Shown here in pieces: positions 1 to 64,000 of a DNA stretch of 64,000 bases. The notes beneath the pieces are model-generated. The model did no database searches. It had not been told where the DNA came from and saw only the letters and a list, made by a program, of their open reading frames with translations. The DNA lies in the NCBI GenBank assembly GCA_022376925.1, contig JAIOJX010000004.1:124025123-124089122 (forward strand), read 5' to 3'. The DNA comes from Tragulus kanchil. Taxonomy: Eukaryota; Chordata; Mammalia; Artiodactyla; Tragulidae. Within the stretch, counting starts at the first letter, position 1. Every line of letters starts with the position of its first letter. Made by a program: the position numbers and the translations under genes.

Positions 1-265
1 GGGACACAGGTCTGATACCTGGTCCTGGGAAAATCCCACATACCATGGAGCAACTAAGCCCATGTGCCACATCTACTGAGCCCGCATGATGAACTACTAA
101 AGCCAGCACACCTAAGCCCATGCTCCACAAGAGAAGACACCACAGGGAGAAGTCCACACACTGTGACTAGAGTAGCCCTTGCTCGCCACATCCAAAGACC
201 TCACATAGCAAGGAAGACCCAGTGCAGCCAAAAATAAATAAGTAAATCTTAAAAAAATAAAAAAA
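1..265 (+). mobile_element. CHR-2-type tRNA-derived SINE, cut by window start
   Basis: The stretch reads as the body and tail of a CHR-type SINE: repeated phrases of the form 'caactaagccc', 'gccacat', 'ctactgagcccgc', 'agagtagccc', then 'cagccaaaaataaataa' and an A-rich tail. The tRNA-related head is missing because the window begins inside it. CHR SINEs derive from tRNA-Glu and are shared by cetaceans, hippos and ruminants. The part from base 88 is repeated by the first tandem pair. Confidence 0.85.
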
Positions 266-1118
266 TGAAAGAACAGAAAATGGAAATAATAAACAATTTG
301 TCTTTGGCACTGAATTAATCAAACAATTTTCCCCTGTTTGACTGTTAACCTAGTTAATCACAGAGAGAGTTTTAGTGATATCTTATTTTATTTCTTTGTC
401 ATTTGTTAATGGGCTCATGAGTTTAATTTGTTAATATTTTACCAGTATTTTTGTACTTATTTATATTTTTGTTTTCTTGTGTCACCCATGCCTGATTTCT
501 AGCATCTGACTCCTGTCCTGACACCACTCCCAGACTTTTAAGAATTGCATGGCCTGAGGCCCGCTGTCAGAAGGAAGTAGGATGACAAACTGGGTTCTAG
601 GATGATAATTGGTTCCACTTCCCTCAGGCATATATGGCACTGCTATTTTCACTCTTTAGTGAACATAAATTAGAATAAACTGGTTCTTTTTTTTTCTTTT
701 GGTGAATGGGAAGATTCTAAATTGCTTTCTTTATCTCTCCCAGTATGAACTAGAGATAAAAGGCTCATTTCCTATTGCTTGGAGTGTAGAGGAGAAGAAT
801 AATACCATTTGAAACGCTGTCTAAGTGTTGCTGCTTATAAAACTTCCTGCTTTGACTTCTTATCAGTCTTGTTAGCAGATAGAATACTTTTGGCTGCAGG
901 TAACAGATTTCTGACTAACATTCCTGAAATGTAAAGACCTTTATTTCAGCGAAAAAAAGTTGAATAAAAAAAAAGTTTGCATCATTTGTATATAGGATTA
1001 AAAAATGAGTGTCACTGTTTACTACCAGAGTCAACTGTACAGTTCTTCCATTGTTTCCTTTTCAAATAAAACAGTCATTACAACAAAATACCAAAATAAT
1101 ATGGCTTTTATAACCAGC
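266..1118. other. AT-rich single-copy sequence, no feature recognised
   Basis: No repeat family, exon or long frame could be recognised. It is repeated at 1359-2213 as part of pair 1. The minus-strand frame at 1062-1250 crosses the pair junction and is not a gene. Confidence 0.6.
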
Positions 1119-1180
1119 TAAATTTATACATAAATTTAAAAAATTCAAGCTCCAGTAGCCCTGGCTCCGCCACATCCAAT

Positions 1181-1358
1181 GATGAACTACTAAAGCCAGC
1201 ACACCTAAGCCCATGCTCCACAAGAGAAGACACCACAGGGAGAAGTCCACACACTGTGACTAGAGTAGCCCTTGCTCGCCACATCCAAAGACCTCACATA
1301 GCAAGGAAGACCCAGTGCAGCCAAAAATAAATAAGTAAATCTTAAAAAAATAAAAAAA
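1181..1358 (+). mobile_element. Second copy of the CHR-2 SINE 3' part
   Basis: This is the same SINE segment as 88-265, present again only because of tandem pair 1. It has no head of its own and no target-site duplication. Confidence 0.85.
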
Positions 1359-2213
1359 TGAAAGAACAGAAAATGGAAATAATAAACAATTTGTCTTTGG
1401 CACTGAATTAATCAAACAATTTTCCCCTGTTTGACTGTTAACCTAGTTAATCACAGAGAGAGTTTTAGTGATATCTTATTTTATTTCTTTGTCATTTGTT
1501 AATGGGCTCATGAGTTTAATTTGTTAATATTTTACCAGTATTTTTGTACTTATTTATATTTTTGTTTTCTTGTGTCACCCATGCCTGATTTCTAGCATCT
1601 GACTCCTGTCCTGACACCACTCCCAGACTTTTAAGAATTGCATGGCCTGAGGCCCGCTGTCAGAAGGAAGTAGGATGACAAACTGGGTTCTAGGATGATA
1701 ATTGGTTCCACTTCCCTCAGGCATATATGGCACTGCTATTTTCACTCTTTAGTGAACATAAATTAGAATAAACTGGTTCTTTTTTTTTCTTTTGGTGAAT
1801 GGGAAGATTCTAAATTGCTTTCTTTATCTCTCCCAGTATGAACTAGAGATAAAAGGCTCATTTCCTATTGCTTGGAGTGTAGAGGAGAAGAATAATACCA
1901 TTTGAAACGCTGTCTAAGTGTTGCTGCTTATAAAACTTCCTGCTTTGACTTCTTATCAGTCTTGTTAGCAGATAGAATACTTTTGGCTGCAGGTAACAGA
2001 TTTCTGACTAACATTCCTGAAATGTAAAGACCTTTATTTCAGCGAAAAAAAGTTGAATAAAAAAAAAGTTTGCATCATTTGTATATAGGATTAAAAAATG
2101 AGTGTCACTGTTTACTACCAGAGTCAACTGTACAGTTCTTCCATTGTTTCCCTTTTCAAATAAAACAGTCATTACAACAAAATACCAAAATAATATGGCT
2201 TTTATAACCAGAT

Positions 2214-2663
2214 CATTAAATTTTTATATCATAAAATGTTTTAAAAAGAATTTCAAAAAAGTTATATGCTCAATTTTTATTCCTTAAAATATTTTATATT
2301 AATAACATTTTAACATATTATGAGAATATACTGTTTCTATAGCACTAATAAACAAAAAAATATTATGTATCTAAAAATATACAAAGAAGTTCCTAGGTTG
2401 TTAATTACAAGGTTGGTTTGTGGTTCAGTTATTCCAGGCAGGATCCAAGGCTTTTTGGTTGTCTATCCTGGATATCAAGAGCTATGCTTCAACTACGTCT
2501 CTTCTCATGGATGCAAGATGGCTCTTGATGGCCTAAGCATCATGCAAACCTGTAACATCATGCCAGTGAGACAAGATAAAGATGGGGGGAAATAGAACTT
2601 TCCTCCTAGATCTCTCTCCTTTCAGAGGAGAGGATTATCTTTTGAAGAACCCTCAACATATTT
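2214..2663. other. Unassigned sequence; 91-codon chance frame
   Basis: The first half is A/T rich. The second half (about 2400-2640) is more balanced and may be an old interspersed repeat I cannot name. A plus-strand frame of 91 codons (2320-2595) shows no domain, signal peptide or splice context and lies in simple AT-rich DNA at its start, so I do not call it a gene. Confidence 0.5.
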
Positions 2664-2666
2664 CTA

Positions 2667-2989: not shown

Positions 2990-3720
2990 GGCCTCCATTT
3001 CTGGAGGTGGGCAATGGAAAGAGAAATAGGGAATGGCCAATAGACTGGAAACTAACACTTCTTTAGCTCACTGCTCTAAATTTATTTTAATTGGTTAATG
3101 TATTTGCTTTTTTCCATCTTTCCTTTGTGTTCCCCAAGATAATATCAGTTCTTCCTTAACAGGACTGAATATTTCTATCCAAACACACTTTTAATGTTTT
3201 TCCTCACTCACTGAGCATCCTAGCCATTCCCTTTTAGCTTACTTGGCTTTGTTTTGTGCCATCACTTGGAGGACAAGTCTCAGTCTCTGTTTCTAATATA
3301 AATACTTAGGTGGTCACCACATTCCAAATGATTTATCATACTTGAGATGTTTTTAGTTGCTTGCTTGAAAACAAAATCTCATGAGATCAGACTCTCCATT
3401 CTCCTATGATTTCCAAAAACACACTTTAGTCCTGTGTTTCCATGGCACACTTTTCCCTCTGGCAGTACCAGTTCAGTCATATACCTTCTGCCCATTAGCC
3501 TACCAGAGCAGACAGATTTAAGAACTGAATGTTCTTCCCAACCTATGAATGTAGGAGAACTGACATTCAGAAAGTATTATATTAGCACATTTATGCTTAG
3601 ATAAGAGACTGAGATAAATATGGCTATGTCTAGTAAATCAGAAGCATCATCAGCCTGAATGTGTGAGTTGATTTGAGCATGAAGAAGGCAGGGGCTACTT
3701 CATTACAAAATCACTCTCAA
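2990..3720. other. Single-copy sequence, nothing recognised
   Basis: I see no named repeat, exon-like stretch or RNA gene here. It ends where tandem pair 2 begins. Confidence 0.5.
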
Positions 3721-4117
3721 AATGAACAAGTTTAACATCATCTGTATATGTCAAAGGGACCAACTCTCCTCTGAATTAACTTTCAATTTAGAATACAACT
3801 TTCTAAGGAAAAGAAATAAAACATGCCACATACACATGCTATTAATCTCAACAGTAGTCTCAATAATTGTTTAGAACTCAGGTAAACCAAAGATTTTCCT
3901 CAAAGAGGAATATTTATTCATGACTATATCAACATTGTTTAGTGTTGCTATGTATAGTGATGATAATAGGACCCATTTTAGTTTATTTTATTCCCATTTC
4001 TAAAGCCTGTACTGATAATACTCCCCTGCCCACTCCTGATTGTCTGTACCTGGAGCACCTCATGCCTAGTGCCCTATTCTTGGTATGCTGTTGGGGAAAA
4101 CTAACACTTGGTATGTT

Positions 4118-4337
4118 TGCATTGTGCCAATAATTGTTTAATGCTTTTTATATAACATAATAGGGTAGATATGAGATACTCTAGCCCTTATTTACTGATG
4201 AAAGAAAATTTGATGTATTCGCTGATAATGTATGTACATTTATTGAGAAAAGTTAAAGTTAGTTAGGTGATCAGAAAAATTCAGAATTAAACTCAGATCC
4301 TTCAGGTTTCAAACTCATGCTCCTGAATACCAACTAA
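4118..4337 (+). mobile_element. MIR SINE (second copy 5266-5485)
   Basis: The sequence follows the MIR plan: 'tgtgccaataattgtttaatgc', then 'ttatttactgatgaaagaaa', then a 3' half with 'aaactcagatcc' and 'actcatgctcctgaatacc'. MIRs are ancient mammal-wide tRNA-derived SINEs. Parts are deleted. Confidence 0.6.
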
Positions 4338-4461
4338 CTTCTGGGAGACACAAGATAAATTCTAGTCTCAAATCTCAGTTTCCTCATCTTAAGAAGGACA
4401 GGCTTAGGTGAACTGATAACTAAAATCCATTTTAGCTAAAACACTGAACTTTCTTTTTTTG

Positions 4462-4632
4462 GGTGCTCTTTATGTGCCAAGTACTGAGCTAAAAGCATTT
4501 TACATATGCTATTTGTTGAATAACAAAAACAGAAAAACCTAGTGAAATAACATATGCAGAGAGGTTAAATCACAAGTTTAAGGAGCTTTAGTTGGCAAAT
4601 CATGGAGCTGGGATTTTAATTCAGACTTATTG
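4462..4632 (+). mobile_element. MIR SINE (second copy 5610-5780)
   Basis: Clear MIR core: 'tatgtgccaagtactgagct', 'ttttacatatgct', 'gcagagaggttaaatcac' and 'atggagctgggattttaatt' in the consensus order. It is doubled only through pair 2. Confidence 0.8.
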
Positions 4633-4702
4633 AACTTAAATGCCTACATACTTTAAAGAGATTGTTCTCAGTTAAATATAAATGTCAGAATATGCAGAGT
4701 GA

Positions 4703-4834
4703 GGGCTTCCCCTGGTGGTCCAGTGGGTAAGGACACCGCCTTGCAGTGCAAGGGGCGCCAGTTCGATCCCTGGCCTGGGAAGATCACGTGCCGTGGAGCG
4801 GCTGAAACTGATGTGTCCAATTACCGAGCCGGAG
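4703..4834 (+). mobile_element. Head fragment of the young CHR-like SINE, duplicate of 5851-5984
   Basis: The head and part of the body match the complete SINE at 5851-6176 and then stop where copy 1 of pair 2 degrades. It is not an independent insertion: the same 15-base left target-site sequence precedes it at 4688-4702. Confidence 0.9.
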
Positions 4835-5850
4835 TTTGGCCATGTGCCCCGCAAAGTACTCATTAAAAAATGAACAAGTTTAACATCATCTGTATATGTC
4901 AAAGGGACCAACTCTCCTCTGAATTAACTTTCAATTTAGAATACAACTTTCTAAGGAAAAGAAATAAAACATGCCACATACACATGCTATTAATCTCAAC
5001 AGTAGTCTCAATAATTGTTTAGAACTCAGGTAAACCAAAGATTTTCCTCAAAGAGGAATATTTATTCATGACTATATCAACATTGTTTAGTGTTGCTATG
5101 TATAGTGATGATAATAGGACCCATTTTAGTTTATTTTATTCCCATTTCTAAAGCCTGTACTGATAATACTCCCCTGCCCACTCCTGATTGTCTGTACCTG
5201 GAGCACCTCATGCCTAGTGCCCTATTCTTGGTATGCTGTTGGGGAAAACTAACACTTGGTATGTTTGCATTGTGCCAATAATTGTTTAATGCTTTTTATA
5301 TAACATAATAGGGTAGATATGAGATACTCTAGCCCTTATTTACTGATGAAAGAAAATTTGATGTATTCGCTGATAATGTATGTACATTTATTGAGAAAAG
5401 TTAAAGTTAGTTAGGTGATCAGAAAAATTCAGAATTAAACTCAGATCCTTCAGGTTTCAAACTCATGTTCCTGAATACCAACTAGCTTCTGGGAGTCACA
5501 AGATAAATTCTAGTCTCAAATCTCAGTTTCCTCATCTTAAGAAGGACAGGCTTAGGTGAACTGATAACTAAAATCCATTTTAGCTAAAACACTGAACTTT
5601 CTTTTTTTGGGTGCTCTTTATGTGCCAAGTACTGAGCTAAAAGCATTTTACATATGCTATTTGTTGAATAACAAAAACAGAAAAACCTAGTGAAATAACA
5701 TATGCAGAGAGGTTAAATCACAAGTTTAAGGAGCTTTAGTTGGCAAATCATGGAGCTGGGATTTTAATTCAGACTTATTGAACTTAAATGCCTACATACT
5801 TTAAAGAGATTGTTCTCAGTTAAATATAAATGTCAGAATATGCAGAGTGA

Positions 5851-6176
5851 GGGCTTCCCCTGGTGGTCCAGTGGGTAAGGACACCGCCTTGCAGTGCAAG
5901 GGGCGCCAGTTCGATCCCTGGCCTGGGAAGATCCCACGTGCCGTGGAGCGGCTGAAACTGATGTGTCCAATTACCGAGCCGGAGCTCTGGAGCGCATGTG
6001 CCCAGAGCCTGTGCTCTGCGACAACAGAGGCCACTGCGATGGGAGGCCCACACGGGCCAAAGAACAAAGATGGATGAAAATAGATAAATGAAAGACCAAT
6101 AGAAGTGGCCCGCCCGCTCCCCTCCCTCCCCAACCCGATCCCGCCCAAAATAAATAAATAAATTTAAAAAAAAAAA
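5851..6176 (+). mobile_element. Full-length young CHR-like SINE, long-tail form
   Basis: The tRNA-Glu-like head ('ggtggtccagtgggtaagga', 'gttcgatccctgg') is followed by a body with 'gagctctggagcgcatgtgc', 'gctctgcgacaacagag' and 'gatggatgaaaat'. A CT-rich 3' extension ('gtggcccgcccgctcccctc') leads to an (AAAT)n/A tail. A perfect 15-base target-site duplication, gaatatgcagagtga, lies at 5836-5850 and 6177-6191, which fixes both ends. The intact duplication and CpG-rich body suggest a recent insertion. Confidence 0.93.
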
Positions 6177-9399: not shown

Positions 9400-10768
9400 A
9401 AGATTACACTCTAGTATTACAAAACATTGGCTATATTTCCACGTTGTACAATATATCCTTGAGCCTATCTTACACCCAATAGTTAGTGTCTCTTACTCCT
9501 CCGCCCTTATATTGTCCCTGCCCATCTCCATTGGTAACTAATAGTTTGTTCTCTATATTTGAGAGTTTGCTTCTTTTTTGTTTTAGTCACTAGTTTATTG
9601 TAAGTTTTAGATTCCACATACGTGATAACATGCAGTATTTGTCTTTGCCTGACTTACTTCAGTTGGCATAATGACCTCGAAGTCCATCCATGTTATTACA
9701 AATGGCATATTTTCATATTTATGGTTGAAAAGTATTCCATTGTGTGTGCCACATCTTTTTCGTCCAGTCATTTGCTGATGGACACTTAGGATGTTTCCAA
9801 ATCTTGGGAACTATAAGTAACACTGCTGTGAACATCAAGATGAATTTATCTTTTCAAATTAGTGGGTTTCTATTGTTTGGTTGTTTTTTTTTTTTTTTTT
9901 TTTTGATATATACCCACAAATAGAATCACTGGGACACTGGGACATATGGTAGTTTTATGTCTAGATATTTGAGAAACTTCCATAATATTTTTTGCAATGG
10001 ATGCATTTATTCACAATCCTATCAACTGTGGATGATGGCTCTTTTCTCCACATCTTTGCCAACATTTCTCATTTGTATTCTTTTGATAATAGCCATTCTG
10101 ACAGGTGTGAGGTGATATATCATTGTGGTTTTTATTTGCGTTTCCTGGTGGCACTAGTGGTAAAGAACTTGCCTGCCAATGCAGGAGACATAAGAGACAT
10201 GGGTTCAATCCCTAGGTTGGGAAGATCCCCTGGAGAAGGAAATGGCAATCTACTCCATGGGCAGAGGAACCTGACAGGCTACAGTCCATAGGGTTGCACA
10301 GTGAGACACAACTTAAATGACTTAGCATGCATGCATGCATGATGATTAGTGATACTGAGCATCTTTTCTTGTGCCTGTTGGCCATCTGGATTTCCTTTTT
10401 GAAAAAATGTCTACTCAGTTCTTCTGCCCATTTTTAATTGGGTTATTTGTGTTTTTGATGTCAAGCTGTATGAGCTGTTTATAATTGTTAATATTAATCT
10501 CTTACTGGTTATAATATTTGTAAATATTTTCTCCATGTTATCTTTTCATTTTGTCAACTGGTTTCCTTTTCTGTGCAAAAGCTTTTAGGTTTAATTAGGT
10601 CCCATTTGTTTATTTTTCCTTTTATTTTCTTTACATTAAAAAATGGATCAAAAAATATTGATATGATTTGTGTTAAAGGTGTTCTATGTTTTTCTTTAGG
10701 AGTTTTATTTAGATCTTCAATTTACTTTGAGTTGATTTTTGTATGTAGTATTAGAGAGTATTCTAATA
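9400..10768 (-). mobile_element. L1 3' part: ORF2 end plus 3' UTR, antisense
   Basis: Read on the minus strand this is the C-terminal end of L1 ORF2 and its 3' UTR. On the plus strand typical antisense phrases occur in order: 'acaaaacattggctatattt', 'ttgtacaatatatccttg', 'gttctctatatttgagag', 'agtattccattgtgtgtgcc', 'gccattctgacaggtgtgag'. A Bov-tA at 10141-10326 interrupts it. At about 10768 it abuts L1 sequence in the opposite orientation. Confidence 0.85.
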
Positions 10769-12229
10769 TCAACAAATCCAAAACAATTGACAAAATGACA
10801 ATAAGAACATTCATATCAATAATTACTTTAAATGTAAGTAGATTAAATGTTCCAATCAAAATAAACTGAGTGGCTGAATGGATACTGAAGCAAGACCTGC
10901 ATATATGCTGCTACAAAGGACTCACTTCAAACCAGGAGATATATACAGACTGAATGTGAGAGGATGGAAAAAGATATTCTATGCAGGTAGAAATCAAAAG
11001 AAACCTGGAGGAGCAATACATAGACAAGTATACTTTAAAATAAAGGCTGTTATAAAAGGCAAAAAAAGAATACTAAAAAATGATCAATTCAAGAATATAC
11101 AACAATTGTTAATATATCTGCACCCAACTAGATATATAAGGAGATACTGCAATTTCATTTTTTGATAATAGCCATTCTGACAGGTGTGAGGTGATATATC
11201 ATTGTGGTTTTTATTTGCGTTTCCTGGTGGCACTAGTGGTAAAGAACTTGCCTGCCAATGCAGGAGACATAAGAGACATGGGTTCAATCCCTAGGTTGGG
11301 AAGATCCCCTGGAGAAGGAAATGGCAATCTACTCCATGGGCAGAGGAACCTGACAGGCTACAGTCCATAGGGTTGCACAGTGAGACACAACTTAAATGAC
11401 TTAGCATGCATGCATGCATGATGATTAGTGATACTGAGCATCTTTTCTTGTGCCTGTTGGCCATCTGGATTTCCTTTTTGAAAAAATGTCTACTCAGTTC
11501 TTCTGCCCATTTTTAATTGGGTTATTTGTGTTTTTGATGTCAAGCTGTATGAGCTGTTTATAATTGTTAATATTAATCTCTTACTGGTTATAATATTTGT
11601 AAATATTTTCTCCATGTTATCTTTTCATTTTGTCAACTGGTTTCCTTTTCTGTGCAAAAGCTTTTAGGTTTAATTAGGTCCCATTTGTTTATTTTTCCTT
11701 TTATTTTCTTTACATTAAAAAATGGATCAAAAAATATTGATATGATTTGTGTTAAAGGTGTTCTATGTTTTTCTTTAGGAGTTTTATTTAGATCTTCAAT
11801 TTACTTTGAGTTGATTTTTGTATGTAGTATTAGAGAGTATTCTAATATCAACAAATCCAAAACAATTGACAAAATGACAATAAGAACATTCATATCAATA
11901 ATTACTTTAAATGTAAGTAGATTAAATGTTCCAATCAAAATAAACTGAGTGGCTGAATGGATACTGAAGCAAGACCTGCATATATGCTGCTACAAAGGAC
12001 TCACTTCAAACCAGGAGATATATACAGACTGAATGTGAGAGGATGGAAAAAGATATTCTATGCAGGTAGAAATCAAAAGAAACCTGGAGGAGCAATACAT
12101 AGACAAGTATACTTTAAAATAAAGGCTGTTATAAAAGGCAAAAAAAGAATACTAAAAAATGATCAATTCAAGAATATACAACAATTGTTAATATATCTGC
12201 ACCCAACTAGATATATAAGGGAGATACTA
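10081..12229. repeat. Tandem near-identical pair 3 (10081-11148 / 11160-12229), offset 1079
   Basis: The copies include the L1 tail, the nested Bov-tA and the inversion point. Copy 1 ends with a one-base loss in a G run close to the junction ('aaggagatact' against 'aagggagatact'). Copy 2 overlaps the next pair, so bases around 11913-12229 exist three times. Confidence 0.93.
10141..10326 (+). mobile_element. Bov-tA SINE nested in L1 (second copy 11220-11405)
   Basis: Head 'ttcctggtggcactagtgg', 'ttgcctgccaatgcagg', then body 'ctggagaaggaaatggcaat', 'cagaggaacctgacaggcta', 'acacaacttaaatgactta'. It splits antisense L1 sequence that continues on both sides. A short (GCAT)n run follows at 10327-10341. 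Confidence 0.9.
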
Positions 12230-14179
12230 ACAGTCATAAAAAAAGAAATCAACAGTTAAACAATAATAGCATAGGACTTCAACACTTCTCATATCAATGG
12301 ACAGATCATCCAGAAAAAAAATCAATAAAGAAGTACAGGCCTTAAGAGACACATTAGATCAAATAGGCTTACTTGATATATAGAGAGCACTGCATCCAAA
12401 AGAAGCAGAATAAACATTCTTTTTAAGCACACTTGGAACCTTCTCCAGGATGGATCACATGCTAGGCTATATAGCAAGCTTCAGTGAATTCAAGAAAATT
12501 GGAATCATATCAAGCATCTTTGCCAACCACAACACTATGAGACTAGAAATCAGCTACAAAAAAGAAAGCAATCTGCAAAAAACAAGTTTTACTAAACAAT
12601 GAAAGGACCACTGAAGAAATTAAAGATGAAATTTAAAAAATACATAGAGACTAGTGAAAACAAAAATGCAATAATCCAATACCCACTTGATGTAGCAAGA
12701 GCAATTCAAAGAGGGAAGTTTACAACAATACAAGGTTATCTCAGAAAAAAAAAAACAACAAAACAAACAACCAAACTTTGTACCTACAGCAAATGGAGAA
12801 AAAAGAGCAAACAAGACCAAAAGTAGAAAGAGAGGAATCATAAATATCAGAACAGAAATAAATGAAATAGAAACTAAAAAAACATTTTTAAAAGATTAAT
12901 CAAACTAAAATCTACATCTTTAAAAATATAAACAAAATTGATAAACCTTTAGCCAGACTCATCAAGAAAGAAAGAAAACAGAGGGCTTAAATCAGTAAGT
13001 AGATTAAATGTTCAATCAAATAAACTGAGTGGCTGAATGGATACTGAAGCAAGACCTGCATATATGCTACAAAGGACTCACTTCAAACCAGGAGATATAT
13101 ACAGACTGAATGTGAGAGGATGGAAAAAGATATTCTATGCAGGTAGAAATCAAAAGAAACCTGGAGGAGCAATACATAGACAAGTATACTTTAAAATAAA
13201 GGCTGTTATAAAAGGCAAAAAAAGAATACTAAAAAATGATCAATTCAAGAATATACAACAATTGTTAATATATCTGCACCCAACTAGATATATAAGGGAG
13301 ATACTAACAGTCATAAAAAAAGAAATCAACAGTTAAACAATAATAGCATAGGACTTCAACACTTCTCATATCAATGGACAGATCATCCAGAAAAAATCAA
13401 TAAAGAAGTACAGGCCTTAAGAGACACATTAGATCAAATAGGCTTACTTGATATATAGAGAGCACTGCATCCAAAAGAAGCAGAATAAACATTCTTTTTA
13501 AGCACACTTGGAACCTTCTCCAGGATGGATCACATGCTAGGCTATATAGCAAGCTTCAGTGAATTCAAGAAAATTGGAATCATATCAAGCATCTTTGCCA
13601 ACCACAACACTATGAGACTAGAAATCAGCTACAAAAAAGAAAGCAATCTGCAAAAAACAAGTTTTACTAAACAATGAAAGGACCACTGAAGAAATTAAAG
13701 ATGAAATTTAAAAAATACATAGAGACTAGTGAAAACAAAAATGCAATAATCCAATACCCACTTGATGTAGCAAGAGCAATTCAAAGAGGGAAGTTTACAA
13801 CAATACAAGGTTATCTCAGAAAAAAAAAAACAACAAAACAAACAACCAAACTTTGTACCTACAGCAAATGGAGAAAAAAGAGCAAACAAGACCAAAAGTA
13901 GAAAGAGAGGAATCATAAATATCAGAACAGAAATAAATGAAATAGAAACTAAAAAAACATTTTTAAAAGATTAATCAAACTAAAATCTACATCTTTAAAA
14001 ATATAAACAAAATTGATAAACCTTTAGCCAGACTCATCAAGAAAAAAAAAGAAAACAGAGGGCTTAAATCAGTAAAATTAGAAATAAAAAAGAAGTTACA
14101 ACCAATGCCACAGAAATACAAAGAATCATAAGACAGTACCACAAACAAGTATATGCCAATAAAATGTACAAAGAAATAG
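10769..14179 (+). mobile_element. L1 ORF2 endonuclease-to-early-RT segment, inverted part of the same L1
   Basis: The plus strand encodes the L1 endonuclease region. Frames at 10878-11165, 11957-12259 and 13037-13336 are three copies of one segment with the 'LLQRTHFKPGD' motif, and it continues to early reverse-transcriptase sequence ending near 14179. Orientation is opposite to the L1 tail at 9400-10768. Real length is about 1.25 kb because pairs 3 and 4 insert about 2.16 kb. Stops and frameshifts are common. Confidence 0.8.
11913..14076. repeat. Tandem near-identical pair 4 (11913-12994 / 12995-14076), offset 1082 falling to 1075
   Basis: Copies join directly at about 12995 and share 'gtaa' at the seam. 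Copy 2 carries single and triple base losses in its first 80 bases (for example 'atgttcaatcaaataaac' against 'atgttccaatcaaaataaac') and otherwise matches, which is why the offset drifts from 1082 to 1075. Confidence 0.93.
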
Positions 14180-15138: not shown

Positions 15139-15406
15139 TTTTTTGGGGGGACCACTTCTATTAGTGTTTCATTTATCTATTTTCATCCATCTTTGTTCTT
15201 TGGTCCATGTGGGTCTCCCATCACAGTGGCCTCTCTCGTTGCTGAGCACCGGTTCTGGGCGCATGTGCTCCAGAGCTCTGGTTTGGTAATTGGACACATA
15301 GGTTCAGTCACTCCGCGGCACGTGGATCTTCCCAGGCCAGGGATTGAACCTGCACCCCCTGCACTGCAAGGCAGTGTCCTTACCCACTGGACCACCAGGA
15401 AAGCCC
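15139..15406 (-). mobile_element. CHR-like SINE, short-tail form
   Basis: On the minus strand: head 'ggtggtccagtgggtaagga', 'ttcaatccctgg', body with 'tctggagcacatgcgcccag' and 'gatggatgaaaatagataa', then 'ctaatagaagtggtcccccc' and poly(A). It lacks the CT-rich extension of the copy at 5851. An imperfect target-site duplication of about 20 bases begins at 15114 on the left and at 15407 on the right ('taattgtagtgg' against 'taattatagtg'). Confidence 0.88.
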
Positions 15407-15568
15407 TAATTATAGTGTTTTTAAATGTACAATATATGAAATATAATAAAGAACAAACAAACAAAAGGTCCTTTTACAGTGATTAACTGTTTAATCTTTT
15501 ACTGTGAAACTGTTGCTAAACTATGCCTATTAATTTGTATAAACTACATGATGTAACACTGCTTTAGG

Positions 15569-15995: not shown

Positions 15996-15996
15996 T

Positions 15997-48884: not shown

Positions 48885-50150
48885 GGGCTTTCCTTGTGGT
48901 TCAGACAGTAAAGAAATCTGTCTGAAATCAGGGAGACCTGGGTTCCATCCTTGGATTGGGAAGATACTCTGGAGAAGGAAATGATACTTCAGAATATCTT
49001 CCCATTCCAGTATTCTTGTCTGGAGAATTCCACGGACAGAGGAGTCCTTTGGCTACATTGCACAGTGTCCACGGACAAGCAAAATGACCAATAGTAGTTC
49101 ACTAAGTAATGTTTGGAACCACTATACCAAGGGAAATTTAAATGATTTACAACTTCTGCCTATATGCTTTTATCATAAAATATGTTTTATGTTCCAACTT
49201 CCTCCTTTAGAAAATGTTGATATATTAGTGATGTGTTATGTAGAAAGTAAAGAAAAAGGAATAAAATAAGAAATTAGATTTAAGATTTAAGATTCTTTCA
49301 ACCCTTTTTTATTATTTTCATCCTGGAATGTGAAGAAACAACAATAAGAAGTATTAACTTAAGTGTTTATGTAGTAAACTTCACAATTATTCAAAATGTT
49401 TTCCTGAATATACACTGTAGTCTCTCTATGACCCTTTATAGTCTTTTAGCATTTGAGTTCTAAGTCAAACATTTTGAGCTTCTGAAATTTTTTCTCTTCA
49501 GCACATAGCCATTCCCTCCATCAAAAATCTTTATTTTAACATTACCATGAGTGGCTCAGGTTCTACCTTGTAGAAAGACATCAGAATTGAAAGACTCTTA
49601 AGACTATTTTGCAGCAGACTCTGCAGGAGGTTCCAACTGTTTAACATTTGTTCTATTTCTCCAATTCTGTTGTAAATAAGATCTCATCTTGTTAGGCCAG
49701 AGTCACCATTTGATTCACACTGGGAGAGTTAGGAGCTGATAATGAGTGAGCAAAAGACAGTTATTTTTAGGTCTTCAAAACACAGACCTTTAGCCTAACA
49801 TATATTAATCCAATGAATCACATTTTCTTGGGGAAAAAACATGTAAACCTCCTCTCTAACCCTTCCAGATCCTTTCTAAATTAAGGTTTCTGTAAACTCC
49901 AATGCTAGAGCAGCCAACTCCTGGGTAATTTTTAGAAATAACTTTCAACTGCAGAATGGCCTGGGGCTTTCCTTGTGGTTCAGACAGTAAAGAAATCTGT
50001 CTGAAATCAGGGAGACCTGGGTTCCATCCTTGGATTGGGAAGATACTCTGGAGAAGGAAATGATACTTCAGAATATCTTCCCATTCCAGTATTCTTGTCT
50101 GGAGAATTCCACGGACAGAGGAGCCTGAAGCCTGGTCGGCTACATTGCAC
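48007..50150. repeat. Tandem near-identical pair 15 (48007-49068 / 49087-50150), offset 1080
   Basis: Differences include a lost A near copy 2's start, 'ctctcgcagg' against 'ctctgcagg', and a block loss at the end of copy 1 within the Bov-tA ('gaggagtcctttggctac' for the longer form in copy 2). Confidence 0.93.
48885..49070 (+). mobile_element. Bov-tA SINE, truncated first copy
   Basis: Same Bov-tA as 49966-50190, damaged in its last 50 bases by the pair 15 junction. Confidence 0.85.
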
Positions 50151-50190
50151 AGTGTCACAAAGAGTTGGACATGACTGGGCGACTGAACTG
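49966..50190 (+). mobile_element. Bov-tA SINE
   Basis: Head 'gctttccttgtggttcagac', 'agggagacctgggttccatc'; body 'tctggagaaggaaatgatac', 'gaattccacggacagaggag', 'gagttggacatgactgggcg'. It includes an extra segment near 'cttcagaatatcttcc' compared with the usual form. Confidence 0.88.
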
Positions 50191-50756: not shown

Positions 50757-51960
50757 TCCAGAAATTTGGTCCACCTCCCAGACTAATGGAAATAAAAACA
50801 AAAATAAACAAATGAGACCTAATTAAACTTAAAAGCTTTTGTACAATGAAGGAAATTATAAGCAAGGTGCAAAAACAGTCCTCAGAATGCAAGAAAATAA
50901 TACCAAATGAAACAGCTGACAAAGAATTAACCTCCAAAATATGTAATCTGCTCATGGAGCTCAATACCAGAAAAATGAACAATCCAACTAAAAAGTGGGC
51001 AGAAGACCTAAATAAACATTTCTCCAAAGAAGAAATACAGATGACTAATAAACACATGAAAAGATGCTCAACTTTGCTCGTCATTAGAGAAACACAAATC
51101 AAAATCACAATGAGAGATCATCTCACACTGGTCAGAATGACCATCATCAAAAAGTCTACAAACAATAAATGCTGGAGAGGGTGTGGAGAAAAGGGAACCC
51201 TCCCCTCCCATGATGGTAGAAATGCAAACTGTTACAGCCACTATGGACAACAGTGTGGAGATACTTAAGAAACTGAGAATAGAACTGCCATATCACCCAG
51301 CAATCCCACTGCTGGGCATACACCCCAAGGAAACCAGAACTTAAAGAGACACATGTACCCCAATGTTCACTGCAGCACTATTTACAATGGCTAGGATATG
51401 GAAGCAACCCATGTGTCCACTGGCAGATGAATGGATAAGGAAGATGTGGTACATATACACAATGGAATATTACTCAGCTATAAAAATAAATGCATTTGAG
51501 TCAATTCTAATGAGGTGGATGAACCTGGAGCCTATTATACAGAGTGAAATAAGTGAAAAAGACAAATACTGTATATTAATGGATATATATGGAATTTAGA
51601 AAGATGGTGCTGACAATCTTACATGCAAGGCAGCAAAAGACACACAGACGTAAAGAACAGACTTTTGAACTCAGTGGGAGAAGGCGAAGGTGGGAAGATT
51701 TGAGAGTATAGCATTGAAACATGTACATTACCATACGTAAAATAGCTGAGCAGTGCCAGTTCAGTGGATGAAGCAGGGCACCCAAAGCTGGTGCTCTGGG
51801 ACACCCCAGAGAAACAGGGTGGGGAGTAATGTAGTGGGAGGGGGGCAGGGTGAGCTGGGACACATGTATGCCTGATGAAGTATGACAAAAGCCATCACAA
51901 TACTGCAAAGAAATTATGCTCCAATCAAAATAAGTTAATTAATTGAAAACAATAAAACAC
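50757..51960 (+). mobile_element. L1 with cattle-like 3' UTR, nested in an older L1
   Basis: ORF2 C-terminal part: frame 50846-51268 ('[20 protein letters not shown]', '[14 protein letters not shown]') and 51363-51599 ('YYSAIKINAFESILMRWMNL'). The 3' UTR ('gaatttagaaagatggtgct', 'tttgagagtatagcattgaa', 'gaagtatgacaaaagccatc') resembles the bovine L1 end and differs from the young L1s in this window. An in-frame TGA at 50813-50815 replaces the same tryptophan codon as in the two young copies. Confidence 0.9.
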
Positions 51961-53569
51961 ACACACACAAAAAGAACCAAAACAAAATGTGTATATCCTT
52001 AATAACAAAATCTCAAAATACACAAAACAAAAGCTGATAGTGTTAAAAAGAAAAATAGATAAATTTACAGTTACACTTAGACACTTCAACATTCCTCTGT
52101 CAGTAGTTGCTAGAACAAAGACAAGAAATCAGTAAAGATGTAAGAGAAAAGTGACACCATCAACTATCACTATAGTGTCACACTTTTTACATTTACAGAA
52201 TGCTCCACCTAACATCTGAATAAGCATTTCATTCAGGTGCATGTGGAACATTCAGCAAGATAAACAGTATTCTTGGCCATAAAACAAACCTTGATAAATT
52301 TAAAAGGATAGAAACCAACATCTTTAGCCCACAATAGAATTAAGCTAGAAATCAATACAATAAATATGTCTGGAAAATTCCCAAATATTTGGACATTAAA
52401 CATGAAATGAATATTCTCATATACTCATTACAACTGAGTTCTATTATTTCCTTAAGTATGTAATCTCTAAAATATTGTGACCCCCACACAAGTGTCCACT
52501 GGCAGATGAATGGATAAGGAAGATGTGGTACATATACACAATGGAATATTACTCAGCTATAAAAATAAATGCATTTGAGTCAATTCTAATGAGGTGGATG
52601 AACCTGGAGCCTATTATACAGAGTGAAATAAGTGAAAAAGACAAATACTGTATATTAATGGATATATATGGAATTTAGAAAGATGGTGCTGACAATCTTA
52701 CATGCAAGGCAGCAAAAGACACACAGACGTAAAGAACAGACTTTTGAACTCAGTGGGAGAAGGCGAAGGTGGGAAGATTTGAGAGTATAGCATTGAAACA
52801 TGTACATTACCATACGTAAAATAGCTGAGCAGTGCCAGTTCAGTGGATGAAGCAGGGCACCCAAAGCTGGTGCTCTGGGACACCCCAGAGAAACAGGGTG
52901 GGGAGTAATGTAGTGGGAGGGGGGCAGGGTGAGCTGGGACACATGTATGCCTGATGAAGTATGACAAAAGCCATCACAATACTGCAAAGAAATTATGCTC
53001 CAATCAAAATAAGTTAATTAATTGAAAACAATAAAACACACACACACAAAAAGAACCAAAACAAAATGTGTATATCCTTAATAACAAAATCTCAAAATAC
53101 ACAAAACAAAAGCTGATAGTGTTAAAAAGAAAAATAGATAAATTTACAGTTACACTTAGACACTTCAACATTCCTCTGTCAGTAGTTGCTAGAACAAAGA
53201 CAAGAAATCAGTAAAGATGTAAGAGAAAAGTGACACCATCAACTATCACTATAGTGTCACACTTTTTACATTTACAGAATGCTCCACCTAACATCTGAAT
53301 AAGCATTTCATTCAGGTGCATGTGGAACATTCAGCAAGATAAACAGTATTCTTGGCCATAAAACAAACCTTGATAAATTTAAAAGGATAGAAACCAACAT
53401 CTTTAGCCCACAATAGAATTAAGCTAGAAATCAATACAATAAATATGTCTGGAAAATTCCCAAATATTTGGACATTAAACATGAAATGAATATTCTCATA
53501 TACTCATTACAACTGAGTTCTATTATTTCCTTAAGTATGTAATCTCTAAAATATTGTGACCCCCACACA
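51413..53569. repeat. Tandem near-identical pair 16 (51413-52490 / 52492-53569), offset 1079
   Basis: Essentially identical copies with at most one unmatched base at the seam. The copies start inside the nested L1 and end beyond the older L1. Confidence 0.94.
51965..53480 (+). mobile_element. Older L1 endonuclease region resumes (51965-52400, again 53048-53480)
   Basis: 'aaatgtgtatatccttaata', 'ttcctctgtcagtagttgct', 'attcagcaagataaacagta', 'ccataaaacaaaccttgata', 'gaattaagctagaaatcaat' continue L1 endonuclease DNA from the point left at 50756. The interval 52492-53044 is the pair 16 repeat of the nested L1's 3' end. Confidence 0.7.
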
Positions 53570-55814: not shown

Positions 55815-56296
55815 TGGTATTAGTCTGGGTTCTCCAGAGAAGCAGAATCAGTTGCAGATATAGATATAGCTATATAGATATATGATATCAAACTGATGTA
55901 ATAGACCACATGTAAGTTATTATAAGGGATTGGCTCACGTGATTATGGAGACTGAGAAGTTCCAAGACCTGTGGTTGAACCCCTGAAGACAGAAAGCCAA
56001 TGGTGTAGTTCCTCTCCAAGTTCAAGTCTAAAGGCAGGAGAAGATCAATGTTCCAGCTAGAAGATAGGCAGAGAGAGCAAATTCTCCTTCATTCAGCCTT
56101 TAGTTCTGTTCAGTCCTTCGATGAAACTCATGAGGCTCACCCACATTAGAAAGGGCCCTCTATTTAACTTAGTCTATCCATTCAAATCTTAATCTCATCC
56201 AGAAACTCCCTAACAGAAAATCCAGAAAAATGTTTAACCAAATATCTGAGCAACCCCTCCAGTCAAACTGACACGTAAAATTAACTATCACACGTG
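55815..56296 (+). mobile_element. Ancient interspersed repeat (family R1), near full length
   Basis: Begins 'gtattagtctgggttctcca', 'gagaagcagaatcagttgca', continues 'ttataagggattggctcacg', 'caagtctaaaggcaggagaa', and ends 'gacacgtaaaattaactatc'. Same family as the repeat split by BovB at 15704/17656. The last 129 bases recur at 57251-57378. Confidence 0.7.
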
Positions 56297-58327
56297 CCCT
56301 TTGGTAACTGTATCTTTATCTTTTAAAACATTAATACTTAACAATTCTATTTGGCTATAACCCAGACTTCTGTCCCACAGACATACTGATTTGTTTAAAA
56401 TGTAGCATTGAGTATATAAGACACAAGTACAAATTTTTAAATATAAATAAGCTAATAAGTATATTGCAAAGACATCCATATTCTAAAGTTTGGATATCAG
56501 ATATCAAAGTCCAAGAGGTATTTCACCAGGGAAATATTAAAGTATGCCAACACTACGCTAAAAACATGTAAATATATGACTTAGCATACATCTGCAAGAA
56601 TATTTATAGCAATGTTATTTATGACAATCCAAAACTGCAAAGACCTGAATGTCCACTTATAATAGTACAAATGAGTTGTGAAATATGCATACAATGGAAC
56701 ACTATTTCACTAAGAAAATAAAACCAAATGCTATAGTATGGATGACCTTGCAAACACAATACTGAACAAAGAAGAAGAAATGAAGATAGTTCCAAAAGTA
56801 TGAGTCCACTCAACTTAAGTTCAAAGCAGGCTAAACCAGACCATTGTTGAGAGATGCACATATAGGTTATAGAAGCATAAAGGAAAAGAAAGGTATGAGT
56901 ATCACAAAGCCAGACCAGTGGATACTTCCAGAGTAGAGGGATAGAATTATAATTAGGAAGGAAGCCATGAACACAGGGGGTATTCTTGGATGCTGCCAAA
57001 GTCCTATTTTTTGACTTGGGTTACACCAGTGTCTATTTTATAAGTGTTCACTGGACAGTACAGAATATTCTATGAACTTTCCCACAAGTACATATACTTT
57101 TTGATTAAAAAAAGAGCAAGAGATGAATGAAAAAAGTTAGATTAGGATTTATATAGGAGGCATAACTGTAGGATCCTGCTGGCAAGCACCAACCTCTACC
57201 CGCTGTATCTGATCATATGTCAATATATGTGCAATTGTACTGCAAGGTCCCTTAGTCTATCCATTCAAATCTTAATCTCATCCAGAAACTCCTAACAGAA
57301 AATCCAGAAAAATGTTTAACCAAATATCTGAGCAACCCCTCCAGTCAAACTGACACGTAAAATTAACTATCACACGTGCCCTTTGGTAACTGTATCTTTA
57401 TCTTTTAAAACATTAATACTTAACAATTCTATTTGGCTATAACCCAGACTTCTGTCCCACAGACATACTGATTTGTTTAAAATGTAGCATTGAGTATATA
57501 AGACACAAGTACAAATTTTTAAATATAAATAAGCTAATAAGTATATTGCAAAGACATCCATATTCTAAAGTTTGGATATCAGATATCAAAGTCCAAGAGG
57601 TATTTCACCAGGGAAATATTAAAGTATGCCAACACTACGCTAAAAACATGTAAATATATGACTTAGCATACATCTGCAAGAATATTTATAGCAATGTTAT
57701 TTATGACAATCCAAAACTGCAAAGACCTGAATGTCCACTTATAATAGTACAAATGAGTTGTGAAATATGCATACAATGGAACACTATTTCACTAAGAAAA
57801 TAAAACCAAATGCTATAGTATGGATGACCTTGCAAACACAATACTGAACAAAGAAGAAGAAATGAAGATAGTTCCAAAAGTATGAGTCCACTCAACTTAA
57901 GTTCAAAGCAGGCTAAACCAGACCATTGTTGAGAGATGCACATATAGGTTATAGAAGCATAAAGGAAAAGAAAGGTATGAGTATCACAAAGCCAGACCAG
58001 TGGATACTTCCAGAGTAGAGGGATAGAATTATAATTAGGAAGGAAGCCATGAACACAGGGGGTATTCTTGGATGCTGCCAAAGTCCTATTTTTTGACTTG
58101 GGTTACACCAGTGTCTATTTTATAAGTGTTCACTGGACAGTACAGAATATTCTATGAACTTTCCCACAAGTACATATACTTTTTGATTAAAAAAAGAGCA
58201 AGAGATGAATGAAAAAAGTTAGATTAGGATTTATATAGGAGGCATAACTGTAGGATCCTGCTGGCAAGCACCAACCTCTACCCGCTGTATCTGATCATAT
58301 GTCAATATATGTGCAATTGTACTGCAA
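56168..58327. repeat. Tandem near-identical pair 17 (56168-57245 / 57251-58327), offset 1083-1082
   Basis: Copy 2 loses one C within its first 50 bases ('aaactcctaac' against 'aaactccctaac'); the filler is five bases. Overlaps pair 18. Confidence 0.94.
56500..57110 (+). mobile_element. Ancient L1 3' part (second copy 57582-58192)
   Basis: 'gaatatttatagcaatgtta', 'ctgaatgtccacttataata', 'gcatacaatggaacactatt', 'ggatgaccttgcaaacacaa', 'ggatgctgccaaagtcctat' and 'ttgggttacaccagtgtcta' follow the 3' part of old mammalian L1s. The 126-codon minus-strand frames here are antisense shadows. Confidence 0.65.
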
Positions 58328-60481
58328 AAGGTTGATCCTCATCCCAGTTCCCAAGAAGGGCAGTACTAAAGAATGCTCAGACCACTGGATAATTGCACTC
58401 ATCTCCATGCTATAAGGTTATGCTCAAAATCCTTAAAGCTAGGCTTCAGTGTTACATGAACTGAGAACTTCCAGATGTTTAAGCTGGATTTAGAACCAGC
58501 AGAGGAACCAGAAATCAAACTGCCAACATTTCCTGGATCATACAGAAAGCAAGGGAATTCCAGAAAAACAGTGACTGTATAGATCATAACGAACTGTGGA
58601 AAACTCTTAAAGAGATGGGAATACCAAACCATCTTACCTGTTTCCTTACAAATCAGTATGTAGGTCAATAAGCAACAGTTAAAACCAGACATGGAACAAT
58701 GGACTGTTTAAAAACTGGGAAAGGAGCATGACAAGGCCGTTTATTGATGTCATGCTTATTTAACTTATACGCAGAACACATCATGCAAAATGTCAATCTG
58801 GATGAGTTACAAGCAGGTATCAAGACTGCTGAGAGAAATATCAACAACCTCAGAGATGCCAATGATACCACTCTAACGGCACAAAGCCAAGAGGAACTAA
58901 AAGAGCCTCTTGAGAAGGGTGAAGGAGGAAAGTGAAAACGCTGGTTTAAAACTCAGTATTTAAAAACTTAAGATCATGGTATCTGGTCCCATCACATCAT
59001 GGCAAATAGAAGGGAAAAAGGTGGAAGTAGTTACAGATTTCCTCTTCTTGGGCTCTAAAATCAGTGTAGATGCTGACTGTAGCCATGAAATTAAAAGACA
59101 ATTGCTTATTGGCAGAAAAGTCATGACAAACCTAGACAGTGTGCTAAAAGCAAAGACATCACTTTGCTGACCAAGATCTGTATAGTTAAGGCTACGGTCT
59201 TTCTAGTAGTTACGTAAGAATGTGAGATCTGGACAATAAAGAAGGAAGAATAATTGATGCTTTCAAACTGTGGTGCTGGCAAAGACCCTTGAGAGTTCCT
59301 TGAAAATCAAGGAGATCAAACCAGTCAATCTTTATAGAAAAGAGCAAGAGATGAATGAAAAAAGTTAGATTAGGATTTATATAGGAGGCATAACTGTAGG
59401 ATCCTGCTGGCAAGCACCAACCTCTACCCGCTGTATCTGATCATATGTCAATATATGTGCAAGTGTACTGCTGAGGGTGGATCTGCATCCCAGTTCCCAA
59501 GAAGGGCAGTACTAAAGAATGCTCAGACCACTGGATAATTGCACTCATCTCCATGCTATAAGGTTATGCTCAAAATCCTTAAAGCTAGGCTTCAGTGTTA
59601 CATGAACTGAGAACTTCCAGATGTTTAAGCTGGATTTAGAACCAGCAGAGGAACCAGAAATCAAACTGCCAACATTTCCTGGATCATACAGAAAGCAAGG
59701 GAATTCCAGAAAAACAGTGACTGTATAGATCATAACGAACTGTGGAAAACTCTTAAAGAGATGGGAATACCAAACCATCTTACCTGTTTCCTTACAAATC
59801 AGTATGTAGGTCAATAAGCAACAGTTAAAACCAGACATGGAACAATGGACTGTTTAAAAACTGGGAAAGGAGCATGACAAGGCCGTTTATTGATGTCATG
59901 CTTATTTAACTTATACGCAGAACACATCATGCAAAATGTCAATCTGGATGAGTTACAAGCAGGTATCAAGACTGCTGAGAGAAATATCAACAACCTCAGA
60001 GATGCCAATGATACCACTCTAACGGCACAAAGCCAAGAGGAACTGAAAAGAGCCTCTTGAGAAGGGTGAAGGAGGAAAGTGAAAACGCTGGTTTAAAACT
60101 CAGTATTTAAAAAACTTAAGATCATGGTATCTGGTCCCATCACATCATGGCAAATAGAAGGGGAAAAGGTGGAAGCAGTGATATATTTCCTCTTCTTGGG
60201 CTCTAAAATCATTGCAGATGGTGACTGTAGCCATGAAATTAAAAGACAATTGCTTATTGGCAGAAAAGTCATGACAAACCTAGACAGTGTGCTAAAAAGC
60301 AAAGACATCACTTTGCTGACCAAGATCTGTATAGTTAAGGCTACGGTCTTTCTAGTAGTTACGTAAGAATGTGAGATCTGGACAATAAAGAAGGAAGAAT
60401 AATTGATGCTTTCAAACTGTGGTGCTGGCAAAGACCCTTGAGAGTTCCTTGAAAATCAAGGAGATCAAACCAGTCAATCTT
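58195..60481. repeat. Tandem near-identical pair 18 (58195-59333 / 59341-60481), offset 1146
   Basis: Besides edge losses, this pair has clusters of substitutions: near 58320/59467 ('aaaggttgatcctc' against 'gagggtggatctgc') and near 59025-59080/60171-60226. The second copy is closer to the BovB consensus in the latter cluster. This pair is less identical than the others. Confidence 0.92.
58328..59333 (+). mobile_element. BovB reverse-transcriptase region, first copy
   Basis: BovB order: 'cccagttcccaagaagggca', 'gatgggaataccaaaccatc', 'aatctggatgagttacaagc', then frames 58744-58935 and 58976-59170 ('MVSGPITSWQIEGKKVE', 'FLFLGSKISV'). The YADD catalytic box reads 'DANDTTL', so the essential aspartate pair is broken. 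Interrupted at the pair 18 seam. Confidence 0.9.
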
Positions 60482-60768
60482 TAAGGAAATCAACCCTAAG
60501 TACTCTTTGGTAGGTCTGATGGTGATGATGAAGCTCCAATACTTTGGCCACCTGATGCGAACAGCTGACTCATTGGAAAAGCCCTTGAGCTGGGAAAAAC
60601 TGAAGGCAGAAAAAGAGGGCAACAGAGGATGAGGTGGTTGGATGACATCACTGATTCAATGGACATGAACTTGGGCAAACTCTGGAAGATGGTAAGGAAC
60701 AGAGAAGCCTGCATGTTACAGTCCATGAGGTTGCAAAGAGTCAGACATGACTTGGCAAGTGAACAATA
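59470..60768 (+). mobile_element. BovB reverse-transcriptase region to 3' end, second copy
   Basis: Same element as 58328-59333, here complete to the 3' terminus: 'ggccacctgatgcgaacagc', 'gatgaggtggttggatgaca', 'gagtcagacatgacttggca'. The same inactivated catalytic box appears. Confidence 0.9.
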
Positions 60769-61568: not shown

Positions 61569-61800
61569 GGGCTGCCCTGGTAGTCCAGTGGGTAAAGAGT
61601 CTGCCTTGCAGTGCAAGACCCCACCTGCAGCCAAGTGGCCAGACCGGTGTGTCCAATTACAAGCTGGCGCTCTGGAGCACATGCACCCAGAGCTGGTGCT
61701 CTGCAGTGAGAGGCCACTACAATGGGAGGCCCACACAGGCCAAAGAATAAGGATGGATGAAAATAAATAAATTTTAAAAAATTTTAAAAAGAGGCCAAAA
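61569..61800 (+). mobile_element. CHR-like SINE, tailless form, internally shortened
   Basis: Head 'ggtagtccagtgggtaaaga', body 'ctctggagcacatgcaccca', 'gaggccactacaatgggagg', 'ggatggatgaaaataaata'. Part of the tRNA-related B-box region is deleted after 'gcagtgcaagacccc'. Confidence 0.85.
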
Positions 61801-61945
61801 TTAGAAAAAAAGAGAAAACTATAAAATGGAAAAATATATATTATCAATTGCATTGCATTATTCAGTCTAAGAAAAATTAAAATATTAAATATTTTAAAGT
61901 AATTTTAAGAACAGATATTCAAGGCTAGATATATGAGCAATGAAA

Positions 61946-62750
61946 TTTTTTAATTTTTATTTTATATTGGAGTATATTTAACAATGTTGTGTTAGTACCC
62001 GGTGTACAGCAGGGTGATTCAGTTATATATATACATGTATCCTTTTCCAAATTCTTTTCCCATTTAAGTTATTACAGAATACTGAGCAGAGTTCCCTACA
62101 CTAAAATAGATAACTTGTTGGTTATCTATTTTAGATACATCAGTGTGTACATGTCAATACTAAATTTCCAATCTATCCCTCCTGTCTCACTCTTCCCCCT
62201 GGTAACCATAAATTCATTCTCTAAGTCAATGAGTCTGTTTCTATTTTGTAAATAAGTTCATTTGTATCAATTTTTAGATTCTGCATATAAGTGATATCAT
62301 ATGATACTTGTCTTTGAGTTCCTTCACTTAGTATGATAATCTCCAGATCCATCCATGGCACTGCAAAGGGCATTATTTCATTATTTTTAACGACTAATAG
62401 TACACCATATATTTGAACCAAATCTTTATCCATTCATCTTTCAATGGACATTTCGATTGCTTCCATGCCTTGGCTATTGTAAACAGTGCTGCAATGAACA
62501 CTGGGGTGCAAGCATCCTTGTAAACCATATTTTTTCCAGGTATATGCCCCAGAGTGGGATTGCAGGATCATATGATAGCTCTATTTTTAGTTTCTTAAGG
62601 AACCTCTGTATTGTTCTCCAAAGTGGCTATACCAGTTTATATTCCCAACAACAGTGTAGAAAGGTTCTTTCTTTTCTACACCCTCTCCACTATTTATCAA
62701 TTGCAGACTTTTCGATGATGGGCATTCTGATAGGTGTGAAGTAATATCTC
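61946..62750 (-). mobile_element. 5'-truncated L1, antisense, bounded by target-site duplication
   Basis: Antisense 3' UTR and ORF2 end: 'gtgttagtacccggtgtaca', 'atccatccatggcactgcaa', 'tggctattgtaaacagtgct', 'agagtgggattgcaggatca', 'gcattctgataggtgtgaag'. The 13-base target-site duplication atgagcaatgaaa lies at 61933-61945 and 62751-62763, fixing an 805-base insertion. Confidence 0.92.
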
Positions 62751-62885
62751 ATGAGCAATGAAAATGGATTTTTAAATTGCATCTTCCTAAATATTTATTT
62801 GAATTGCTCTTCTATAATTAAACAGCCATCATTAAGAAAGGGTTTTCTTATTTCAATGATGCTGCCATCATTCAAAATATTTTGA

Positions 62886-63230
62886 GGGCTTCCCTAGTAG
62901 CTCAGTGGTGGAGAGTTCAACTGCTGCTGCATGAAACGAGTTCATTGCCTGATCCAGGAAGATCCCACATGCTGTGGAACATCTAAGCCTGTGAGCCACA
63001 ACTATTGAGCCTGTGCTCTAGAGTCTTGGAGTCACAACTATTGAGCCCACGTGCCACAACTACTGAAGCCCGTGTACCCTAGAGCACAAGTTCTACAAGA
63101 AAAGTCACCACAACAAGAAGCCTGCTCACATCAAGCAGAGAGTAGCCCCCCACTCTCTGCAACTAGAGAAGAGCCTACAGCAGCAGTGATAACCCAGAAT
63201 AGCCAAAAATAAATAAATTAATTTTAAAAA
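62886..63230 (+). mobile_element. CHR-2-type SINE, full length
   Basis: Head 'ggcttccctagtagctcagt', body 'gtgagccacaactattgagc', 'cgtgccacaactactgaagc', 'gcagagagtagccccccact', tail 'cagaatagccaaaaataaat'. Clear target-site duplication not seen. Confidence 0.9.
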
Positions 63231-63621
63231 CCCAGTTCTGAACCATTTATATAAAATTACCTTCAAAAGATGTCTAAAATAAATATGATTATCAGCCTGA
63301 TTATTTTATAATTACATTTTTTACTAATAACATTTGCTACATGAGTACTATGTAGAAATTTAATTTTCATTGCCATTCTTATTTTAGAGCAGATATGGTT
63401 TTTAGAACTAAAGATTTTCCACAACTCAGGGTTTCTGAAAAATATGATGCATGGTTCTAAGAAACTGTGAAAAAAGAATTCCAAGACATAGTATGTTAAC
63501 AGGGAAAATAATCATTTATATGTAAACTGTCAGGTATCAGCTTCTGCCTAGAATGTAGAAAGTTGCAAGAGAATGCCATTTCTACCATTACAATAATACA
63601 AACCAGATAATTCCATTACAT
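63231..63621. other. AT-rich single-copy sequence
   Basis: No repeat or coding signal recognised; it ends at the seam of pair 19. Confidence 0.55.
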
Positions 63622-64000
63622 ATTGCTTCCATGCCTTGGCTATTGTAAACAGTGCTGCAATGAACACTGGGGTGCAAGCATCCTTGTAAACCATATTTTT
63701 TCCAGGTATATGCCCCAGAGTGGGATTGCAGGATCATATGATAGCTCTATTTTTAGTTTCTTAAGGAACCTCTGTATTGTTCTCCAAAGTGGCTATACCA
63801 GTTTATATTCCCAACAACAGTGTAGAAAGGTTCTTTCTTTTCTACACCCTCTCCACTATTTATCAATTGCAGACTTTTCGATGATGGGCATTCTGATAGG
63901 TGTGAAGTAATATCTCATGAGCAATGAAAATGGATTTTTAAATTGCATCTTCCTAAATATTTATTTGAATTGCTCTTCTATAATTAAACAGCCATCATTA

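Follow-up and report, generated by a model that had tools for sequence, protein, structure and literature searches.

The window analyzed here, a 64,000-nucleotide stretch of contig JAIOJX010000004.1 from the Tragulus kanchil assembly GCA_022376925.1, looks like retrotransposon-rich mammalian nuclear DNA and contains 19 tandem doublings with near-identical copies. All 19 pairs that a sequence-only reading of this DNA had reported were recovered, with starts differing by at most 4 bp; 18 are complete, and pair 19 is truncated by the window end (Table 1). The lag between copies, which that reading had put at 1077–1192 with a sum of about 21.1 kb, measured 1077–1192 bp (mean 1108, standard deviation (SD) 33), and the lags total 21,059 of the window's 64,000 bases. 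In the 18 complete pairs, the aligned copies are 1030–1175 bp long and 98.7–100% identical outside indels. Ten of these pairs are substitution-free, and 64 differences were counted across the 18, with a single pair showing none. The claim that the copies are doubled exactly and with near-identity is thus borne out for near-identity and not for exactness. The 379 bp visible of the second copy of pair 19 are identical to the first.

A census of repeated 31-mers across the window returned 18,385 pairs at lags of 1060–1200 and 1,137 pairs at lags of 2150–2310, the latter corresponding to two adjacent lags summed. All remaining lags together accounted for 1,518 pairs, the commonest values being the spacing between two LINE-1 relatives. 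Exact repeats this long are not produced by chance in 64 kb. The lag range is constant across content: it was observed in LINE-1-related, short interspersed nuclear element (SINE)-like and BovB-like sequence, as well as in pair 11, for which no relative of at least 180 bp is listed elsewhere in the window. Content differs from pair to pair, as had been claimed, except that neighbors joined by a tripled stretch have common content. The 64-kb window contains no N letters, and scaffold gaps are thereby absent.

Table 1. Coordinates of the 19 tandem pairs, in positions of the window.
Pair	Span	First copy	Second copy	Remarks
1	86–2211	86–1117	1179–2211	61-bp filler
2	3719–5984	3719–4834	4867–5984	32-bp filler
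3	10081–12228	10081–11148	11160–12228	11913–12228 tripled with pair 4
4	11913–14066	11913–12989	12995–14066	
5	15348–17557	15348–16446	16456–17557	17194–17557 tripled with pair 6
6	17194–19559	17194–18368	18386–19559	
7	20584–22731	20584–21657	21661–22731	
8	23948–26173	23948–25059	25061–26173	contains a relative of the pair 14 LINE-1
9	27436–29650	27436–28540	28541–29650	29321–29650 tripled with pair 10
10	29321–31514	29321–30413	30420–31514	
11	32748–34973	32748–33858	33859–34973	
12	39844–42052	39844–40939	40961–42052 (perhaps from ~40955)	41732–42052 tripled with pair 13
13	41732–43913	41732–42814	42829–43913	
14	44903–47068	44903–45983	45987–47068	within LINE-1 ORF2; ORF2p residues 1018–1272 in both copies
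15	48007–50156	48007–49069	49087–50156	
16	51413–53569	51413–52490	52492–53569	copies identical
17	56168–58327	56168–57245	57251–58327	58192–58327 tripled with pair 18
18	58192–60483	58192–59334	59338–60483	least alike: 98.7%, 15 substitutions
19	62456–64000	62456–62834 (seen part)	63622–64000 (seen part)	seen parts identical; truncated by window end

Tripled stretches, copy differences and junctions

Each successive stretch, or unit, repeats the last 1077–1192 bp of the preceding one, to which it is joined without Ns. Sequence is present three times wherever a pair's second copy runs into the first copy of the pair that follows; five such stretches of 136–364 bp occur, all of them missed by the sequence-only reading. 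They sit in units of 1835–2087 bp, which are shorter than two overlaps, so that the overlap on the left crosses the one on the right. Tripling of this kind is predicted from overlapping tiles and would not be expected from independent duplications. The middle copy of a tripled stretch lies in the interior of its unit. With the first and last four columns of each alignment left out, 25 columns differed among the five stretches, the odd copy being the one at the unit end in 9, the one at the unit start in 16 and the middle one in none. For seven of these columns, located at the margin of the stretch compared, 3-base padding may be the cause; excluding them, the middle copy was odd in 0 of 18. 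Those 18 columns represent approximately nine separate events, for which (2/3)^9 gives a probability of ~0.03, so that chance is not far off. One of the five tripled stretches is without any difference and hence uninformative.

The differences between paired copies are unevenly placed. Within 50 bp of a unit end we counted 21 of the 64, against ~5.8 expected (binomial p ~1e-7), comprising 12 near where copy 1 ends and 9 near where copy 2 begins, with ~2.9 expected for each; both places would be ends of the supposed consensus units. When neighboring differences were merged, 13 of 40 lay near unit ends (p ~3e-5), contributed by 12 of the 18 pairs. Under a biological tandem duplication, differences would be expected to be independent of position, and this clustering at the ends is the opposite. 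The differences follow consensus quality rather than alleles, with pair 18 as a possible exception. From their concentration at unit ends, we infer that assembly pieces meet at the junctions. Pair 18 supplies 18 of the 64 differences; its 15 substitutions are clustered and could be the result of repeat mis-polishing or an allele difference.

At 16 of the 18 junctions, a filler of 1–61 bp separates the copies, and the fillers are unlike one another. A raw-read continuation was considered as their source and found unsupported at the 11 of 18 junctions where they are long enough for testing. The fillers of 17–61 bp, in pairs 1, 2, 6, 12 and 15, showed no clear match to the continuation or to the upstream flank.

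The LINE-1 sequence at pair 14 provides a ruler for the original order. Two of its frames, 44086–45102 and 45113–45889, match LINE-1 ORF2 protein chains in the Protein Data Bank (E ~1e-125 and ~1e-104, respectively). In the residue numbering of chain 8uw3_A, frames 44086–45102, 45113–45889 and 46197–46973 match ORF2p residues 698–1008, 1018–1272 and 1018–1272 again. Two LINE-1-related stretches elsewhere in the window, 25445–26612 and 39219–40490, align to 46104–47267 and 45998–47267, respectively, each unbroken past the end of copy 2 (47068), and three matches of these relatives to copy 1 end at 45983, its last base. The left flank is joined by copy 1 and the right flank by copy 2; therefore, with the doubling removed, the sequence follows the order of a LINE-1. 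Taken alone, this collinearity does not separate an artefact from a real duplication that followed insertion.

Probable unmerged overlaps and a possible link to an assembler

We consider it very probable that the 19 doublings are absent from the animal and arose in a long-read assembly, where overlaps between successive consensus units were left unmerged. Unmerged assembly overlaps had already been proposed from the sequence alone, and the end-clustered differences, the never-deviant middle copy, the tripling and the narrow overlap length (SD 33) support that proposal. In such an assembly, the layout would list contig pieces with a common node of 1,024 raw bases, or four 256-base bins, as sized on noisy reads, and a separate consensus would be made for each piece. 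Neighboring consensuses should then be aligned and the shared node retained once; if joining was omitted or unsuccessful at each of the joints seen, the shared node would be written twice, and part of it three times wherever a unit is shorter than two overlaps. The fault would extend through at least this contig. This mechanism most likely covers the overlap length, the indifference to content, the tripling, the lack of Ns and the decay at unit ends, and an overlap variation of ~3% SD is what would result if noisy reads were used to measure out a fixed length.

wtdbg2 works with 256-base bins and 1,024-base nodes of four bins, and units sharing such a node on such bins would give both the overlap length and the step period seen in the window. 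The overlaps of 1077–1192 bp are compatible with a node, taken to be 1,024 bases long, that was lengthened by indels in the reads and by the ends. Measured from where a unit starts to where the following overlap starts, the 18 steps range from 738 to 5985 bp, including four at 738–780 (three bins) and five at 2287–2375 (nine bins). Between 150 and 420 bp, the strongest period of these steps was 262.5 (R 0.65). Its significance was p ~0.02 scan-wide, using jittered steps, and p 0.0015 within 250–265, or 0.005–0.007 using only the 14 steps below 2600, all of these values being lenient because the period was spotted by eye before testing. The earlier suggestion that the ~1.1 kb reflects the 1,024-bp units of wtdbg2 gains modest support from the ~262-bp period. 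We regard wtdbg2 or a close relative as the probable assembler.

As Ruan and Li reportedly had it in 2020 for wtdbg2 / wtpoa-cns, the joining step normally keeps a shared node once, whereas here every joint seen is doubled. No description of wtdbg2 failing at every joint was found in the literature searched, which lacks most subscription journals. The artefact is likewise not described in the available parts of PMC11002874, PMC10347838, PMC9729791 and PMC11659978, the last of which discusses allelic loci as a source of false tandem duplications. The sika deer genome was made from PacBio reads with an earlier wtdbg, v1.2.8 (PMC10372904), so programs of this type have been used on ruminants; nothing in the available part of that record ties it to the window.

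Besides the leniency of the p values, several observations weigh against an origin in unmerged wtdbg2-type overlaps. At exactly 256, R is just 0.37, with 5 of the 18 steps (5214, 2198, 5985, 3676 and 941) at least 0.3 bin off, and at 262.5 four steps (2540, 2198, 2020 and 941) are off. The overlaps exceed 4 × 262.5 by a mean of ~58 bp, an excess that a simple node model does not give. Most differences between paired copies (43 of 64) lie farther than 50 bp from a unit end, and 3 of the 18 non-edge odd columns in tripled stretches lie 128–195 bp inside the unit, the remainder being within 80 bp of its end. The origin of the fillers is not accounted for by the proposed mechanism, and those of at least 5 bp (11 of 18 junctions) are without a clear match to the true continuation (chance fractions 0.016–0.85). 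The mechanism also leaves the failure of every joint in 64 kb unaccounted for.

Alternative explanations and consequences for the assembly

The same type of artefact might have arisen in another program or step, if overlapping contigs, unitigs or corrected reads had been concatenated untrimmed by a different assembler, a gap filler or a scaffolder. Tandem overlap and unit-end decay would also be the internal signs of such a source, and overlap duplications at contig boundaries, one of them from a FALCON bug, have been described (PMC8081667). The overlap length in the window is narrow yet not fixed (SD 33), whereas with de Bruijn unitigs every overlap would be equally long, which rules out a fixed-k-mer overlap. 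Read overlaps, for their part, generally spread widely, scaffolding usually leaves Ns, of which there are none here, and the steps near multiples of ~262 bp add modest evidence against a different program. On balance, we view this possibility as unlikely.

A haplotype (heterotype) false duplication, with two alleles placed in succession, could explain pair 18 and its 15 clustered substitutions. It is nonetheless highly improbable for the series as a whole, being disfavored by the 10 of 18 complete pairs that are free of substitutions and by the near-constant length and tripled stretches, neither of which is expected from allele pairs. Real tandem duplications are barely credible: the copies do exist in the sequence as given, but a length-measuring (~1.1 kb), sequence-blind process would have to double DNA every few kilobases in a living genome, with all 19 events recent (copies 98.7–100% alike), copies that differ preferentially at unit ends, a middle copy of three that never deviates and mutually different 1–61 bp fillers at 16 of 18 junctions, and we know of no process that measures ~1.1 kb while ignoring sequence.

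False homotype duplications, including contig-boundary overlaps left in tandem and one case due to a FALCON bug, were reported by the Vertebrate Genomes Project (PMC8081667; PMC9516828). The unmerged overlaps favored here would resemble them in that one locus is written twice in tandem, the ends of overlapping pieces are unmerged and the differences reflect consensus quality. In the cases described in PMC8081667, the length often equals that of a corrected read and a scaffolding gap lies between the copies, whereas the window shows a near-constant length of ~1.1 kb, no gaps and 19 joints in 64 kb. An N gap between copies, which marks the scaffolded homotype sub-type and not within-contig overlaps, was not seen. 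The window is most likely a false homotype duplication in a denser, gapless form of near-constant length.

Under this favored explanation, the feature is not real in the animal and amounts to a data-quality warning rather than biology, as about one third of the window would be surplus. If the whole record is alike, the assembly would be ~1.5 times too long (64,000 versus ~42,900 bases) and would yield false counts of exons, transposons and segmental duplications. The signature, consisting of a near-constant lag, unit-end decay, tripling with a clean middle and a step period near 256, is testable without further data than the assembled letters and could serve in screening public assemblies.

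Retrotransposon-derived sequence in the window

At least 7,999 relatives were obtained for frame 45113–45889, and the 120 matches listed include named entries from pig, cattle hybrid, whale, camel, hyena, bat and rabbit. Among these listed matches, the best-scoring named relative is from pig (rank 41) and the most identical is from the cattle hybrid, at 75% over 78% of the query; identities of the remaining named entries are 59–68%. A Pfam scan of all 12 stop-to-stop frames with 150 or more amino acids yielded one match at E ≤0.001, a reverse transcriptase in 44086–45102; no other of these 12 frames gave a Pfam match indicating a coding gene at that threshold.

The single Rfam match at gathering score is a tRNA-like stretch at 15329–15401, within which the first copy of pair 5 begins; a search extended to E 3 gave 11 matches, and the other 10 of these fall below that score. 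This stretch recurs as a dispersed repeat and is probably a tRNA-derived SINE. From inspection by eye, we take it to be Bov-tA-like and 16020–17700 to be BovB-like sequence. A 601-base BovB-like stretch had zero matches in phage and plasmid records. Ruminants belong to a small number of placental groups in which LINE-1 and RTE/BovB elements occur together, and Bov-tA and Bov-A2 are ruminant SINE families (PMC8620236). The repeat content by itself therefore makes a ruminant origin of the window likely. Beside the BovB-like sequence, 439 bp at 15563–16001 (again at 16671–17110) match their own reverse complement at 79%, forming an old hairpin-like palindrome. A 44-bp unit is repeated 2.1 times, at 95%, at 20181–20271, inside a dispersed SINE-looking repeat. 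The LINE-1-related stretch 38702–40490 is 95–97% identical to 44414–47267, and its 5′ part (38702–39218) is inverted relative to the rest; 5′ inversion is typical of LINE-1 insertion, and this stretch looks like one such insertion.

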